Below are positions 4,033 to 12,048 of a stretch of DNA of 64,000 nucleotides, one piece after another. Within the stretch, counting starts at the first letter, position 1; every line of letters starts with the position of its first letter. The stretch comes from Planctomycetes bacterium syqfu. GTDB taxonomy: Bacteria > Planctomycetota > Phycisphaerae > Phycisphaerales > Phycisphaeraceae. Both the position numbers and the translations under genes were made by a program. The stretch is from positions 4,402,001 through 4,466,000 of the forward strand of contig CP087563.1 in the NCBI GenBank assembly GCA_020974905.1. The letters are read 5' to 3'. The notes under the pieces are model-generated. The model worked only from the letters and a program-made list of their open reading frames with translations, was not told the origin of the DNA and ran no database searches.

Positions 4033-4513
4033 GCGGCCCCCTGATGTTCAAGTCTGTGCTGCCCATGATAGTATCCGTATCCATCCTATGGGAGCGAACG
4101 AAGAATCACCCAATCATACAACCAATCCATCTTTTTTGATGCTTATCAAGCATGCAAGGTTCCGGCTATTGCGCGCCTTTTATGCACAGACCAAGATGTC
4201 ATGAATCGTAACTCCCATAAAAACATAAACCGGCACACTGGCACGGACTTTGCACATAGACCGACAGAACTCTCGTTCTGACACTTTCTATCTTGCCCAA
4301 CGCTCGGGCAAACTTCCCCACCCGGACAACGAAGTCCTTCCTTGATCAAGCTGTATTGTCACCAGCGCAGGTGTTGCAATGCCGCCGAAGGTCTGTTGTG
4401 TTCCGGGTGTGCTTCGTTCATGAAGTTCAGTGGGATTGAAAGGTCAGCACGCGAATTGAATATGCCAGCAATCGTCACTTGGCGTGACTTGGCTGAGCAT
4501 GGAAAGACGAGTG
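4033..4513. other. Gene-free leader region upstream of the nitrate operon
   Basis: A 481-base stretch with no convincing gene. It separates the divergent membrane-protein pair from the nitrate operon and must hold both promoters. The distal part is unstructured and AT-rich. The part from 4293 to 4408 contains the hairpins listed separately. Short frames here (for example on the plus strand from 4342) lack ribosome sites and protein-like composition. Confidence 0.5.
4293..4408 (+). promoter_or_regulatory. Structured 5' leader of the nitrate operon (candidate attenuator or RNA switch)
   Basis: Two structures are visible. The first is a hairpin with stem TTGCCC (4293-4298) and GGGCAA (4306-4311) and a 7-base loop AACGCTC. 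The second is a long-range stem. ACCCGGA (4320-4326) pairs with TCCGGGT (4402-4408), CAAC (4327-4330) with GTTG (4395-4398), and CCTTC (4336-4340) with GAAGG (4387-4391). The leader ends about 100 bases before the first gene. Nitrate assimilation operons in several bacteria are controlled by leader RNAs bound by ANTAR proteins such as NasR or NasT. Whether this leader belongs to that class is not shown, because no T-run terminator follows it here. Confidence 0.35.
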
Positions 4514-6220
4514 ATGATTTCCAAGACCACCGAAAAATCCGATGCGCCCAAGGCTTCGCCATCTGCTGATGCGACCGCCTCATCCAGTGGTGCTCCTAAA
4601 GACCTGCTCTCGGCTTTACTCACCGAGCAGCAAACCTTCACCGCTGTCGATCGCTTCTCCCAGGCCCATCAGGCAGGTGACATCCCCGCCCAAGCTGCTT
4701 ACTACCAATCACTGATCCCAACTGATAAACCGCAAGCCGGTCAGCAATATGCATTCGAGGTGAATCTCGATACCTGCACCGGTTGCAAAGGTTGTGTCAC
4801 CGCTTGTCATAATCTCAACGGTTTGGACGACAACGAAGCCTGGCGTGAAGTCGGACTGCTCACCAGCAGCGACATCTCACTGCCCGTCGTGCAGCACATC
4901 ACCACGGCTTGTCATCACTGCGTTGAACCTGGTTGCCTCGAAGGCTGCCCGGTCATGGCGTATGACAAAAATCCCGAGACCGGCATCGTCAAGCATCTGG
5001 ATGATCAATGCATCGGTTGTCAGTACTGCATACTCAAATGCCCCTACGATGTCCCCAAGTACAACGCGGATCTGGGCATTGTCCGCAAGTGTGACATGTG
5101 TACCGATCGCCTGGAAGAAGGCGAAGCCCCGGCATGTGTCCAGGCCTGCCCTGACAAGGCGATCTCCATCAAGTTGGTCGACACCGTTGAAGCACAAAAA
5201 AACGCACAAAAACAGGACTTTTTGGCGGACACACCCGATTGCACCATCACCACGCCGACCACGCGCTACGTCAGCAAACGCCTTGCAGGTGTCTCGCTGC
5301 ATGCCCCGCAAAGTCAGCCGCGTGCAGAGCATGGGCATTTACCCCTGGTGGTGATGCTGGTCCTCACGCAATTGGGTGTCGGTGCATTGCTTGCCGAGCG
5401 CTTGCTTTTGCCGTTTGCCAATAGCTGGACACAGCTCGTCAGTTCGGCCATGGGATTCAGCATCGGTATGTTCGGCATGACGTGCGCGATCCTGCATCTT
5501 GGAAGACCCCTCTATGCTTACCGCGCGTTTCTGGGTTGGCGGACCAGTTGGCTCTCCCGTGAGATCATCGCGTTTAACGGCTTTGCAGCAGCAGTCCATC
5601 TGCACATCACCATGGTTGCGTTATCCAACAATCTCATCCCGTCATTCATCCTTGAGAAGATTCCCTTCGCCATCCCCATGATCCCCACATGGCTCACCGG
5701 TTGGGCTTCGGTTCTCACAGGATTGGCAGGCGTGTTCTGTTCCATGATGATTTACATCGACACCAAACGCCCTTGCTGGAATTTTAAAAACACAGCCACC
5801 AAGTTCAGCATGACCGGCGTGGTGCTTGGTCTGGCATCTGCCATCGTCGCAACGTGTGTGGGAGCGATCCTCAATCAATCTGCCATCAAGCCCGATCATC
5901 TCATGCTCATGAATCTGGCGTTGATCATCGCAGTCGCCATCAAGATCGGTTTTGAACTGACGCATCTGACGTACAACACCAAGGCTTTACCGCTGGTACT
6001 CATCGCGCGCGTTGCATTCGGGATCACCGGCGGGGTACTCCTGCCGTTTGTGTGCGTGACGATGATTTCACTGGCGGACCCGATGATTCTCGCTGGTCTT
6101 GCCGGAACCAGCTTTGTGTTACTCACACTCGGTGAGTTGGCTGAACGTTACCTGTACTTTGCTGCCAGCGATGCGTTGCGCATGCCCGGCATCACGATCT
6201 CTGACGGAGGGCACCACTGA
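4514..6220 (+). CDS. DmsB-DmsC fusion: four-cluster ferredoxin subunit fused to a membrane anchor
   Basis: A 568-residue protein. In-frame GTG (4484) and ATG (4499) starts exist, but the ATG at 4514 follows GGAAAGACGAG and is preferred. Residues 85-215 hold sixteen cysteines in the DmsB/NarH pattern for four [4Fe-4S] clusters: C88/91/94/98, C133/136/141/145, C166/169/172/176 and C193/196/208/212. From about residue 280 to the end there are around eight hydrophobic helices resembling DmsC/NrfD-like anchors, beginning [19 protein letters not shown]. In DMSO reductases these are two separate subunits, with the anchor oxidising menaquinol and the ferredoxin subunit wiring electrons to the molybdoenzyme. 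Here they are one chain. The stop overlaps the start of the molybdoenzyme gene (TGATG), so the products are probably translated together and form one complex. Confidence 0.85.
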
Positions 6221-8484
6221 TGTCGCAAACCAAATCGCTCAACCTTCCCCTGCTCAAAACCGCAGCCAACATCATCCGCCAATGGGACGGCCCATTGACC
6301 CAGCAAATCGTGCGTGATCCGGGCGGCTTTGGACTTGGGCAAATCCCACGTAAAGCCAAACCCGATGCCACCACCACCATGACCTGCGGCTTTTGTGCCA
6401 CCGGCTGTGGTCTGAACATTCATTTGCAGGATGGCAAAGCCGTCGGCCTGTCACCCAAAACCGAGTATCCCGTGAACCTGGGCATGGCCTGCCCCAAGGG
6501 TTGGGAAGCGCTGGCAGTCACACAATCCGATGATCGCGCGACCACACCATTACTCCGTGATGCAACAGGCAAACAAGTCCCCGTCGATTGGGACACCGCG
6601 CTGACCACCTTCACCACGCGCATCAAAAAAATCATGGCCAAGCACGGCCCCGAGTCCGTCGCCTTTCTCTCCACCGGGCAAATTGCCTGCGAAGAAATGG
6701 CATTGCTCGGTGCGTTGGCCAAATTCGGCATGGGTATGATTCACGGGGATGGCAACACGCGTCAATGCATGGCAACCGCTGTCACCGCCTACAAACAATC
6801 CTTCGGCTTCGACGCACCGCCCTACACCTATGAAGATTTCGAAGCGTCCGACGTCATGTTCTTCGTCGGTTCAAATCTCTGCATCGCACATCCCATCCTC
6901 TGGCAACGGGTGATGCGAAACAAACACAATCCCGACATCATCGTCATCGACCCCCGGAAGACCGAGACGGCGATGGCAGCAACGCATCACCTGGCGATCT
7001 CACCCAAGAGTGACCTGGCACTGCTCTACGGCATCGCGAATCTGCTCATCGTCAATGACTGGATCAATCGTGATTACATCGACGCAAACACCACCGGCTT
7101 TGATGAATTCGCTGCTCATGTCAAAGCCTACACACCCAACCGCGTTGCCAAACTCACCGGCATTGACCCCGACACACTCTGCACCATGGCGCGGAAAATT
7201 CATGATGGCAAGCGCGTGAGCTTCTGGTGGACCATGGGCGTGAACCAATCCCACGAAGGCACCCGCGTTGCCCAGGCCATGATCAACATCTGCCTCATGA
7301 CCGGCAACATCGGTCGCCCCGGCACAGGTGCCAACTCCATCACCGGCCAATGCAATGCCATGGGCTCACGACTCTTTTCCAACACCACCAATCTGCTCGG
7401 CGGACATCACTTCACCAAGCAGGAAGACCGCGAAAAAGTCGCCAACATCCTGGGCATTGATGTGAATCGCATCCCCGATCGCGACAGCTTGCCTTACCAT
7501 CAAATCATCGAAGGTGTCGAGACCGGCAAGATCAAGGCGATCTGGTTCATCGCAACCAACCCATCCCATTCATGGATCGGCCAAAACAAATTCCGTGATC
7601 TCATGAACAAGCTCGACTTCCTGGTCGTGCAGGACATGTACCACAACACTGAAACCGCGCAACAAGCGGACCTGGTGTTACCCGCTGCGGGTTGGGGTGA
7701 AAAGGATGGCACGCTCATCAACTCCGAACGACGCTTCGGTCTGTTGAAAAAAGTCTCCCCGGCTCCCGGTGTTGCCCTGGCAGACTTCTCGATTTTCAAG
7801 GCGATTGCAGCATACTGGGGTTGCGCGGACATGTTCGAAAAATGGACCGACCCCGAAGCCGTCTTCAAAATTCTCACCCAACTCTCCGAAGGCCAACCCT
7901 GTGACATCACCGGCATCAAAGACTATCGCATGCTCGATGATAACGGTGGGATTCAATGGCCTCTCAAGCAAGGTGACGAACTGCAGACCCATCGCAGACT
8001 CTTTGCTGATGGCAAGTATTTTCATCATGACGGTAAAGCCAAGTTTCTTTTTGAAGAAACGCGCAACATGCCCGAGATGCCCAACAGCGAATACCCGTTC
8101 GTCCTGCTCACCGGGCGTGGCAGCGCAGCGCAATGGCATACCCAAACCCGCACCGGTAAGTCCGCTGTGTTGCGCAAGCTTTATCCCAATGACATCTACG
8201 TGCAGATTAATCCCGTTGACGCTGGCGCATTGAGCATCGAACCGACACAGTGGATTTATGTCTACTCCCGTCGTGGCTATCTCAAAGCCCGCGCGTTTGT
8301 CACTGCAACCGTTGCACCGGGGCAAGTTTTTATCCCCATGCACAATCACGAAACCAATCGCTTGACCAAACCGGTCTTCGATCGCTATTCGCATCAACCC
8401 TCATACAAGGCCTGTGCTGTCGCGTTAAGTCTGAGCAAGCCTTGGATCGCATCCGAAAAATCAGAAGGAGTCAGCTATGAGTAA
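6220..8484 (+). CDS. nasA: Assimilatory nitrate reductase catalytic subunit (Mo-bisPGD)
   Basis: A 754-residue molybdopterin oxidoreductase. It starts one base inside the previous stop codon, with GGAGGG upstream. C56, C59, C63 and C91 (motif [10 protein letters not shown] ... ACPKGW) bind an N-terminal [4Fe-4S] cluster. C183, in the segment [10 protein letters not shown], matches the molybdenum ligand of NasA and NapA nitrate reductases. Molybdopterin-binding segments follow ([39 protein letters not shown]), then a C-terminal dinucleotide-binding domain ([19 protein letters not shown]). There is no twin-arginine signal, so the enzyme is cytoplasmic, as expected for nitrate assimilation. It reduces nitrate to nitrite. 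The next gene encodes a nitrite reductase, which supports nitrate rather than another substrate. Confidence 0.9.
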
Positions 8485-10303
8485 TCCAACTTTCACTGAC
8501 GCACAAAAACAATATCTCCAGGGCTTCGTCGCTGGTGTGGACCTGCAACGTCACAACAAAGGTCTTGGTTCACTGGCAGGATCTCTGCCGATTCTCAACA
8601 ACGGCAACACTGCACCTTCAGGTGAAATGGTGACCATCGGTGCTTCCGGAGGCCCCGATGCAATACACCATCAAGCACAGGATCGCTTTACTTCCGCAGG
8701 TAAGAAACTCTGTAACGAAGAGAAAGCCAAGCGTGAGAAAAACGCTTTGGACATCTATGACGAAATGGTCGAACGTGCCAAAAAAGGCGAATTCCCCAAG
8801 GGTTCAGACGTTTTTCTCACCAAGTTCCACGGCTTGTTTTATGTCGCACCGGCACAGGATTCTTACATGTGTCGCATGCGACTTCCAGGTGGTCTATTAA
8901 AAAGTCATCAACTGCGTGGCGTTGCGCAAATCTCAAACAGCCACGCTGGCGGCTATGCCCATGTCACCACACGGGCCAATCTCCAGATTCGGGAGATTCC
9001 GCCAACCGATACCATCCATGTTCTCAATGGGTTGGCAGATCTCGGCATCATCACTCGTGGGGCAGGCGGCGACAACCTGCGCAACATCACCGCCAGCCCC
9101 ACTGCCGGGATCGATTCACAGGAGTTGATCGACACGTCCCAACTCGCCAAGGACATGCATCACTACATTCTCCAACATCGTGAGATGTATGGCCTGCCAC
9201 GCAAGTTCAACATCGCCTTTGACGGAGGTGGTAAAGTTTCTTCTGTTGCTGACACCAACGACGTCGCTTTCATGGCTGTGAAACTCGGAGAAGAAAACGC
9301 CACCGCCGACTTCCCCGCAGGCGTCTACTTCCGATTGGAACTTGGCGGCATCACCGGTCACAAAGACTTCGCCCGCGACACCGGCATCATGCTCAAGCCC
9401 GATCAATGTGTCCAAGCGGCAGCGGCTGTCGTCAAGTGCTTTATCGAACATGGCGACCGTACCGACCGTAAAAAAGCGCGTCTCAAATACCTGCTTGATG
9501 ATTGGGGTTTTGAAAAGTTTATTGCTGAATGCCAAACGCATTTAACCTTCGATTGGCCGAAGTTTGATCTTGCAAAATGCACACAGCGAAGCAAGGTTGA
9601 CCGATTGGGCCATGTCGATTTTCATCCACAAAAACAGGCTGATTTGCACTATGTCGGGGTGACGCTACCCGTGGGCAAGCTTGAACAGGAACAGATGTTT
9701 GCCATCGCTGATATTGCTGATCGCTTTGGCAATGGTGATATTCGACTGACTGTTTGGCAGAACCTGTTGATCCCCAACATCCCGACTGAAAAGATTGATG
9801 CTGTCAAAGAAGCCATCGAAGCTGCAGGATTGCATTGGAGTAAAAGCAACATTCGTGCCGGACTTATTGCCTGCACCGGTAACGCCGGTTGCAAGTTCGC
9901 TGCAAGCGACACCAAACGTCATGCCATGCAGATTGCAGAGCATGTTGAAAACACCGTTGCACTTGATAGCCCCGTAAACATTCACGTCACCGGTTGTCAT
10001 CATTCCTGTGCCCAACATTACATTGGCGACATCGGTTTGATGGGTGCTTCGGTGAGTGTTGAAGACGACATGGTCGAAGGTTACCACATGTATCTTGGTG
10101 GCGGCTATGGTGAAAACCAGGGCATTGCCCGGGACTTTTTCCAGAACGTGCAGGCAACCGATGCACCTGCCATCGTCGAGCAATTACTCACAGCCTACAT
10201 GAACAACCGCACGGATAGCGATGAAAGTTTCGCAGCGTTTTGCAATCGTCACGAAATCGAGCAACTCAAAGCGTACTGTGCCTATGAACCTGCTGTGGCG
10301 TAA
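8477..10303 (+). CDS. nirA: Sirohaem nitrite reductase, NirA-like (nitrite to ammonium)
   Basis: A 608-residue protein in the sulfite/nitrite reductase haemoprotein family. AAGGAG sits seven bases before the ATG, which lies inside the end of nasA (8-base overlap), so translation is likely coupled. The bridging sirohaem-[4Fe-4S] site is C466-x5-C472 ([10 protein letters not shown]) and C507-x3-C511 (TGCHHSC). Two ferredoxin-like half domains are visible, with the segment [14 protein letters not shown] in the first. The reaction is six-electron reduction of nitrite to ammonium. Sulfite reductases share the fold, so the nitrite assignment rests mainly on co-transcription with nasA. The extreme N-terminus, [15 protein letters not shown], resembles the N-terminus of the flavoprotein encoded next. 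Confidence 0.85.
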
Positions 10304-10330
10304 TGCAAATCGCCTGTAAACAAAACATGA

Positions 10331-10429
10331 AACCACAGATAAACACAGATGAACACTGATAAAGACAAAACTTTGTGTGTCATTCAAAACACCTGTGATT
10401 ATCTGTGCTCACTTCCGGGGGCTGTGGTT
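10331..10429. repeat. Palindromic repeat between nirA and the flavoprotein gene
   Basis: AACCACAG at 10331-10338 is the exact reverse complement of CTGTGGTT at 10422-10429. The flanking CAGATAAACACAGAT and GATTATCTGTG continue the symmetry imperfectly. The composition (CCACAGATAAACACAGATGAACAC) is that of an intergenic palindromic repeat and not of a gene. It sits inside the nitrate operon, in the 161-base gap before the flavoprotein gene, and could influence mRNA processing there. Confidence 0.55.
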
Positions 10430-10464
10430 AATTGCCTTGAACACATTGATGAAGGAATTCACTC

Positions 10465-12048
10465 ATGACCACCCCGATAGTTCCCGTGTTACCTGAGACT
10501 GCGCCGTTTAGTGAAGACCAGCGGAGTTGGCTTAATGGTTTTTTTGCAGGTCTTCTTGGTACGGATACCGGCAACGCTGCTGTATCACCTATGACGCCTG
10601 CAACCGATGCCCCTACTGGAGATGTTGAGGACGATGACGACGATCATCCCTGGCATGACGCGGCGATGCCGATGGACGAACGCATGGCGTTGGCAGAAGG
10701 ACGCCCGCTCAAAAGCAAGATGATGGCGGCCATGGCGCAGCTGGATTGTGGTGCCTGTGGTTATGTCTGCCAGAGCTATTCGGCTGCCATTGCCTCAGGC
10801 GAGGAAAAGAATCTCACGCTCTGCCAGCCCGGTGGTAAAGACACTGCCAGGAAACTAAAAGAGCTGATCAAAACCGCAGACCTCACCATTGAAGGCAAAA
10901 CACCTTCAGCATCCAAAAACCCAGAAAATGCTGTAAATACAGGCATTTTTGATCGAAAAAATCCCTTCCCCGCTCCGTTGCTTGCTGCAACACGACTCAA
11001 TGCAGTCGGCTCATCCAAGGACACGCGTTATGTCAGTGTCGACATCATGCACTCGGGTTTGAGTTACAAAGCCGGCGATGCATTGGGCGTCTACCCTGAA
11101 AATTGTTACGCATTGGTCAATGATATTCTCTCACTGTTGCATGCTTCAGGCGGTGAGATTGCGATGTATCGCAACCAACTCATTCGAGAGTTGGATATTA
11201 TCAAACCGACCGATGAATTGCTTGAATTGATGCAGGCCAACGCAACGGATCAAGCGGATAAGGACAAGCTCGCCAAGTTACTTGCAGAAGAAACAGTTGA
11301 AAACTTACCTGTTGAACCGCAGGTGATTGACTTGCTGCTTTTCTTTGAGAACATCAAGCTCACGGTCAAGGATTTTGTTGGGACGTTACTCCCCATGTCG
11401 CCACGACTTTATTCGATCAGTTCATCACCGAAGGCTTACCCCGACGAAGTGCATCTGACGGTGGGTGTGGTGGAATACGAGATGGCAGGTCGCAAACGCA
11501 AAGGTGTCGCGTCGACGTACCTGGGTCAACGTGTGCATCAGCATCAACCGGTTCGCGTGTTCATTCAACCGTCTCATGGCTTTGCCCCGCCATCGGATAC
11601 GAATAAGCCCATGATCATGGTTGGACCAGGAACAGGTATTGCACCGTTTCGCGCGTTTTTACAGGACCGTAAAGCAGATGGTGCAGTCGGTAAAAACTGG
11701 TTGTTCTTCGGTGATCAACACGAAGCAACGGACTTTTTGTACCGCGATGAACTCGAACAATACGTTGCAGATGGCATGCTCAACAAATTGACGACCGCAT
11801 TTTCGCGTGACAGTGATGAGAAAGTTTATGTCCAGCATCGCATGCTCCAACATGCAACTGAGTTGTGGGAATGGCTCAATGACGGTGGTCATTTTTATGT
11901 CTGTGGTGATGCCAAGCGGATGGCAAAAGACGTGGACGATGCACTGCATCAGATCATTGCCCAGCAAGGTCAGATGAGTGACGATGATGCCAGGGCGTAT
12001 GTGAAACAGATGTCTGCGGATGGACGTTATCAGCGCGATGTGTATTGA
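10465..12048 (+). CDS. NADPH-dependent flavoprotein with Fes [4Fe-4S] domain, CysJ-like, no flavodoxin domain
   Basis: A 527-residue protein; AAGGAA lies about eight bases before the ATG. The order is: an N-terminal helix FSEDQRSWLNGFFAG; an acidic linker (DVEDDDDDHPWHD); a Fes-type [4Fe-4S] domain with C95, C98, C102 and C120; then a CysJ/P450-reductase-type FAD domain (RLYSISSSP near 11401) and an NADPH domain (GPGTGIAPFRAF, YVCGDAKRM). It ends RYQRDVY, as CysJ proteins do. CysJ's FMN-binding flavodoxin domain is absent, and the Fes domain occupies its place. The likely role is to pass NADPH electrons through FAD and the Fe-S cluster to the NirA encoded upstream. A sulfite reductase role is the alternative. 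Terminated at 12092-12130. Confidence 0.85.
   Translation: MTTPIVPVLPETAPFSEDQRSWLNGFFAGLLGTDTGNAAVSPMTPATDAPTGDVEDDDDDHPWHDAAMPMDERMALAEGRPLKSKMMAAMAQLDCGACGYVCQSYSAAIASGEEKNLTLCQPGGKDTARKLKELIKTADLTIEGKTPSASKNPENAVNTGIFDRKNPFPAPLLAATRLNAVGSSKDTRYVSVDIMHSGLSYKAGDALGVYPENCYALVNDILSLLHASGGEIAMYRNQLIRELDIIKPTDELLELMQANATDQADKDKLAKLLAEETVENLPVEPQVIDLLLFFENIKLTVKDFVGTLLPMSPRLYSISSSPKAYPDEVHLTVGVVEYEMAGRKRKGVASTYLGQRVHQHQPVRVFIQPSHGFAPPSDTNKPMIMVGPGTGIAPFRAFLQDRKADGAVGKNWLFFGDQHEATDFLYRDELEQYVADGMLNKLTTAFSRDSDEKVYVQHRMLQHATELWEWLNDGGHFYVCGDAKRMAKDVDDALHQIIAQQGQMSDDDARAYVKQMSADGRYQRDVY

Follow-up and report, generated by a model that had tools for sequence, protein, structure and literature searches.

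Which enzyme receives electrons from a CysJ-like reductase that carries an iron-sulfur domain where a flavodoxin domain would be expected? The question is raised by a gene in a 64,000-nucleotide stretch of the genome of Planctomycetes bacterium syqfu (contig CP087563.1, positions 4,402,001 to 4,466,000; hereafter the window), whose product, a FeS-type CysJ-like reductase, we call FeSR. A first-pass annotation of this DNA had proposed that electrons run from reduced nicotinamide adenine dinucleotide phosphate (NADPH) to flavin adenine dinucleotide (FAD), then to a [4Fe-4S] cluster and finally to the neighboring sirohaem nitrite reductase, without flavin mononucleotide (FMN). Comparative analysis backs this route, through invariant cluster ligands, linkage to the nitrite reductase NirA, FMN-bearing versions beside the same NirA and matching trees, and we consider it likely (probability roughly 0.8) that FeSR and NirA are the two subunits of an NADPH-dependent enzyme for assimilatory nitrite reduction, in which a swinging [4Fe-4S] domain would connect FAD to NirA. 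The two genes comprise the following features:

8477..10303, forward strand: NirA family sirohaem/[4Fe-4S] nitrite reductase (NF007126), 608 residues, with RKFN at 242 and an N-terminal docking-like helix; presumed electron acceptor
10465..12048, forward strand: FeSR, FeS-type CysJ-like reductase of the PRK06214/NF004859 family, 527 residues
10501..10554, forward strand: N-terminal helix of FeSR, residues 13-30 (APFSEDQRSWLNGFFAGL), a candidate docking or oligomerization element; helix 17-30 in the AlphaFold2 (AF2) model
10645..10884, forward strand: [4Fe-4S] domain of FeSR, residues ~61-140 (~80 residues), of the RnfB-FdI / corrinoid iron-sulfur protein (CFeSP) N-terminal type, with ligands C95, C98, C102 and C120
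10942..12045, forward strand: CysJ-type FAD/NADPH half of FeSR, residues ~160-527, with C-terminal Y527; R314, Y316 and S317 for FAD, S447, R448, K453 and Y455 for the NADPH 2'-phosphate

The FeSR open reading frame starts with ATG and ends in ...RYQRDVY, and, as the first-pass annotation had recognized, its C-terminal half is that of CysJ: residues 142-527 align end to end with Escherichia coli CysJ (6efv/1ddg; E 1e-91 to 1e-90), including RYQRDVY and the last residue. Pfam assigns FAD_binding_1, NAD_binding_1 and the FeS family PF04060. The predicted structure (AF2 with a 44-sequence alignment; mean predicted local distance difference test score, pLDDT, of 87.7) superposes at residues 149-527 on CysJ 6efv with Z 45 (366 residues, 2.2 A, 42% identity). 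The FAD residues R314, Y316 and S317 are invariant in a set of 44 homologs from Planctomycetota and Proteobacteria (mostly alpha), the others of which are 42-52% identical to the window protein; equally invariant are S447, R448, K453 and Y455, which we take to be equivalents of the NADPH 2'-phosphate ligands of cytochrome P450 reductase (CPR). In fold and ligands this module is that of a diflavin reductase of the CysJ/CPR type, but the FMN-binding flavodoxin domain is missing and a PF04060 domain stands instead. NF004859 matches the full length of FeSR, the FeS domain included, with 699.5 bits (cut-off 432, model positions 6-539), so the family is already in the databases, as PRK06214, under a misleading name. 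The genome holds one PRK06214-type reductase and no second copy; no relative was found in the viral contigs scanned with FeSR, and PADLOC returned nothing.

The four cysteines to which the first-pass annotation had assigned a cluster in place of the flavodoxin domain are kept in 44/44 homologs, which at 42-52% identity argues that the site is not due to chance. PF04060 falls at residues 92-121 of FeSR, where its 22.3 bits are slightly short of the curated cut-off (23), and matches 43/44 homologs (best E 5e-7, E up to 0.01); flavodoxin families match none of the 44. FeSR is real and conserved, and probably functions in the way first proposed. RnfB models match residues 75-145 (E 3e-10), although the cysteine spacing of FeSR (C-x2-C-x3-C-x17-C) is one residue shorter in the middle than that of RnfB (C-x2-C-x4-C), and a profile of the domain alone retrieved only RnfB from the PDB (8ahx, E 3e-4). 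Folded by itself the domain reaches a pLDDT of 87.6; Foldseek found nothing significant for it (E above 2), and a second look with VIA ranked three corrinoid iron-sulfur proteins at the top with modest Z scores of 5.9, 5.1 and 4.5. These alignments cover the first ~58 residues of the chains, which in 2ycl are the N-terminal 4Fe-4S domain, and the ranking of the modeled domain is suggestive only of a fold nearest to that of CFeSP. A likeness of the RnfB domain FdI to the corrinoid protein's domain was remarked in a study of Rnf (PMC9588780). FeSR has this [4Fe-4S] module in common with RnfB and CFeSP; the host protein differs.

The Fe-S domain is flanked by linkers (residues 34-58 and 143-159) that are predicted to be disordered, with pLDDT <50, and whose lengths across homologs range over 20-48 and 11-55 residues, respectively. 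The FdI domain of Rnf, which sits on flexible linkers, has been proposed to act as a moving electron shuttle (PMC9588780), and the FMN domain of diflavin reductases swings (PMC3509625). The predicted layout of FeSR is that expected of a swinging domain. A module of the same kind also ends the gene after the last nuo gene in complex I operons of several Planctomycetota-phylum genomes (L042 8313-9137; L043-L049), where it is 40-50% identical to FeSR residues ~60-135 and suggests an extra cluster on complex I.

The identity of the partner bears on the substrate. The window NirA matches NF007126 with 910 bits (cut-off 523), and in its RKFN motif at 242 Asn occupies the position of Lys217 in E. coli CysI; Asn is also found there in tobacco nitrite reductase (RKWN in a phmmer alignment), and we take the position to mark nitrite-type as against sulfite-type enzymes. 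RKFN is present in 39/39 NirAs with a readable motif, and CysI has RKFK. The genome's other sirohaem enzyme (L136 6542-8383) has RKFK, is CysI-like overall and has no CysJ adjoining. Given RKFN in NirA and a separate RKFK enzyme, the sulfite assignment in the family name is left without support, and the preference for nitrite over sulfite in the first-pass annotation agrees with these residues.

Linkage to NirA was seen from both directions. Starting from FeSR, we found 38 FeS-type loci, in 35 of which NirA lies directly upstream on the same strand; one of the other three is at a contig edge and two lack NirA, and CysI adjoins none (0/38). Because that scan starts from FeSR, it was repeated from NirA in 681 genomes (392 of Planctomycetota and 289 of the class of Bradyrhizobium), a co-occurrence survey that the first-pass annotation had proposed. 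All 21 NirAs over the NF007126 cut-off are directly followed by a CysJ-type reductase (18 Fe-S, 3 FMN), and 0/10 NirA-like genes below it have either type within 1.5 kb; the sampled genomes being related, these 21 and 10 cases are not 31 independent ones. The pair occurs in many planctomycetes and in soil and plant bacteria, and in Bradyrhizobium nitroreducens (L072) nirA and the FeSR gene have a 4-bp overlap and follow a nasT-like gene. Genes for NasA-like nitrate reductases are found in most clusters, in many alphaproteobacteria immediately after FeSR, and are missing from Bradyrhizobium nirA-FeSR loci: NasA linkage varies, whereas NirA linkage is constant. This gene order argues for FeSR, and not a ferredoxin, as the electron donor of the window NirA.

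Further evidence comes from relatives that retain or acquired FMN. In Verrucomicrobiota the same NirA family adjoins a CysJ with an ordinary flavodoxin domain (L085, L086, L090, L098, L105, L126); at L126 the order DmsBC-NasA-NirA-reductase is complete, as in the window, with the reductase in its FMN form. The FMN form also stands beside NirA at L164 and L165, in two genomes that belong to the same GTDB family as the window, and the NF004859 model passes FMN-type proteins too (L126, L164). Since FMN versions occur beside the same NirA, the two domains replace each other there. In quick, unrooted trees without bootstrap, one branch of the FAD/NADPH half (Shimodaira-Hasegawa-like approximate likelihood ratio test, SH-aLRT, 99) has the FeS forms on one side and the FMN-bearing and stand-alone forms on the other, and similarly a single branch of the NirA tree (SH-aLRT 98) splits FMN-linked from FeS-linked enzymes. 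One swap, followed by joint inheritance of reductase and NirA, would be the simplest reading, and as the trees are unrooted they do not fix its direction. The stand-alone forms are CysJ FAD/NADPH halves of ~380 residues in Verrucomicrobiota (L091, L092, L100 and others) that have neither an FMN nor an Fe-S domain nor the docking helix and are linked to neither NirA nor CysI. A separate flavodoxin partner for FeSR is unlikely, because the sole flavodoxin-family gene of the genome lies ~2.8 Mb from FeSR with no NirA or FeSR-type gene adjoining.

The two subunits also appear to share an element that the first-pass annotation had missed, the N-terminal helix of FeSR (residues 13-30). A hidden Markov model built from this stretch of 47 FeSRs, for which the best of 3000 shuffled control sequences scored 6.7 bits, gives 21-52 bits on nearly all FMN-type CysJs and 11.0 bits on E. 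coli CysJ (LTPTQLAWVSGYFWGVL), and exceeds 7 bits on 31/50 NirAs. It stays below 1 bit on CysI, the genome's sulfite reductase, NirA-like genes without a partner and stand-alone reductase halves. By sequence, the helix is a homolog of the N-terminus of CysJ and is found again in NirA. The N-terminus of CysJ is needed for octamer assembly, and since both subunits bear a matching helix, a role in docking or co-assembly is plausible.

Taken together, these data are consistent with a mechanism in which NADPH would reduce FAD in the CysJ-like half, whose fold and ligand residues are in place, and FAD would hand single electrons to the RnfB/CFeSP-type [4Fe-4S] domain. Held between its predicted linkers, this domain would swing as the FMN domain of diflavin reductases does and deliver electrons to the [4Fe-4S]-sirohaem center of NirA, the partner indicated by linkage and co-inheritance, for the six-electron reduction of nitrite to ammonium, with the CysJ-like helix on both subunits probably aiding assembly of the complex. 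The exchange between the Fe-S domain and the FMN flavodoxin domain, in whichever direction, would most simply have happened a single time, within a lineage of NirA-linked reductases. Nitrite may be supplied from nitrate by the products of two genes upstream in the same operon, a putative DmsBC-NasA pair with a presumed role in nitrate assimilation:

4484..6220, forward strand: DmsB-DmsC fusion (4Fe-4S ferredoxin and membrane anchor), presumed quinol donor to the NasA-like enzyme
6220..8484, forward strand: NasA-like molybdopterin nitrate reductase (presumed)

The NasA-like enzyme has no obvious twin-arginine translocation signal, and the pair (4484-8484) is conserved in Planctomycetota and Verrucomicrobiota; it has the appearance of an assimilatory nitrate reductase that is cytoplasmic and linked to quinol.

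Three other roles for FeSR were weighed against this reading. That it is the flavoprotein of a sulfite reductase is suggested by the NCBI name of NF004859, 'sulfite reductase subunit alpha', and by its CysJ-like FAD/NADPH half; an NADPH-sulfite reductase (CysIJ) would nevertheless pair with a sulfite-type CysI, and with a NirA-model partner carrying RKFN, a separate RKFK enzyme in the genome and no CysI at any FeS-type locus, we regard this role as very improbable. It is somewhat easier to imagine, yet still unlikely, that FeSR is a general donor to NasA as well as NirA, or serves mainly NasA. The frequency of NasA-like genes in the clusters, often just downstream of FeSR, would fit such a role, and one report notes that a single donor, Paracoccus NasG, may serve both enzymes (PMC4724949). 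Nevertheless it is NirA and not NasA that is constantly linked to FeSR, NasA of the window comes with a DmsBC partner of its own, Bradyrhizobium loci do without NasA, and the same report proposes Flp, encoded elsewhere, as donor to NasC in Bradyrhizobium japonicum (PMC4724949).

About equally doubtful is the idea that FeSR is an NADPH-dependent reductase of a free ferredoxin or other protein, with that ferredoxin serving NirA. FNR-type families do match the FAD/NADPH half, and one FeSR paralog stands beside a globin without NirA; the constant gene pair, matching trees and common helix nevertheless point to a direct complex, and FeSR, with a [4Fe-4S] domain of its own, has no need of a further ferredoxin. 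The paralog is a second FeSR copy in Planctomycetes bacterium K23_9 (L080 9001-10569), with a NirB-like FAD protein and what seems to be a single-domain globin as neighbors, and is possibly a reductase for nitric oxide detoxification.

Several points weigh against an NADPH-dependent FeSR-NirA enzyme. No biochemical data on any FeSR were found in the open-access literature, about one NirA in three shows the helix only weakly, and the FeSRs at L080 and L089 have no NirA nearby, so that other acceptors are possible for them. NirA of B. japonicum (bll4571) is called ferredoxin-dependent by its authors, with the donor untested in the available part of the article (PMC4724949), and Pseudomonas aeruginosa NirA, from the same superfamily and perhaps outside the window NirA family, takes spinach ferredoxin and hardly NADPH with free flavin (PMC8092218). 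In the window, nirA and FeSR are separated by a gap of 161 nt (10304-10464) that holds a dispersed repeat. The repeat consists of CCACAGATAAACACAGATGAACACTGATAA and a partial inverted copy, and has 26 copies in the genome at <=3 mismatches, with none for the reversed control.

Among known systems, E. coli NADPH-sulfite reductase (CysJ; 6efv, 9c91, 1ddg) resembles FeSR in its FAD/NADPH half, C-terminus, N-terminal helix motif and sirohaem-enzyme neighbor, but has a flavodoxin/FMN domain and CysI where FeSR has a [4Fe-4S] domain and a nitrite-type NirA. The ferredoxin-dependent NirAs of plants, cyanobacteria and P. aeruginosa belong to the same sirohaem/[4Fe-4S] superfamily and share the nitrite-type residues; the window NirA differs in being co-inherited with an NADPH reductase dedicated to it and in bearing an additional N-terminal helix. 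NirB/NirD and NasB-type NAD(P)H nitrite reductases also lead from pyridine nucleotide to sirohaem, as proposed for FeSR-NirA, and do so with a fused glutathione-reductase-type FAD domain and BFD-like or Rieske domains, without a CysJ-like subunit. BoxA, the reductase of benzoyl-CoA epoxidase, fuses [4Fe-4S] domain(s) to an FNR-type FAD/NADPH module, but differs from FeSR in its ferredoxin domains and its di-iron oxygenase partner and lacks the CysJ-type helix and NirA; TIGR03224 matches the FNR-like half of FeSR. The claim of the first-pass annotation that FeSR-NirA is distinct from both NirA and NirBD systems is supported but narrowed: this NirA is itself a NirA superfamily member and some relatives use an FMN domain, making the pair a variant of the two-subunit NADPH reductase and not an unrelated system.

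These observations may extend to Bradyrhizobium. In B. japonicum, growth on nitrite has been shown to require NirA (bll4571, 625 residues, encoded behind nasST) but not the flavoprotein Flp (PMC4724949). NirA of B. nitroreducens has the same length as bll4571, lies behind the nasT-like gene and has FeSR next to it, and by this analogy, drawn from B. nitroreducens and not from strain USDA110, FeSR may be the missing donor of B. japonicum NirA. We give somewhat better than even odds to the broader view that throughout the NF007126 family, Bradyrhizobium included, NirA provides the catalytic subunit for an NADPH-nitrite reductase of two subunits, put together by means of the CysJ-like helix on each and with interchangeable FMN and [4Fe-4S] swinging domains.

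In the open-access literature we found no paper on PRK06214 or on an FeS-type reductase. As the family is already known under a misleading name, what is new is the assignment of function, the exchange of FMN and [4Fe-4S] domains beside one catalytic partner, and the common helix. The evidence suggests that the name 'sulfite reductase subunit alpha' is wrong for FeS members, which touches sulfur and nitrogen annotation in many genomes. Collectively, sequence comparisons suggest that the FeSR-NirA pair is an overlooked NADPH-powered route from nitrite to ammonium, and they name a likely electron donor for a bacterial nitrite reductase that is widespread and currently presumed to depend on ferredoxin. 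A diflavin-type reductase whose FMN domain is exchanged for a [4Fe-4S] domain beside the same partner makes the role of FMN testable with natural pairs. Were the reading for the whole NF007126 family true, a third class of assimilatory nitrite reductase would have to be recognized, one that offers a natural experiment: a flavin shuttle replaced by an iron-sulfur shuttle.
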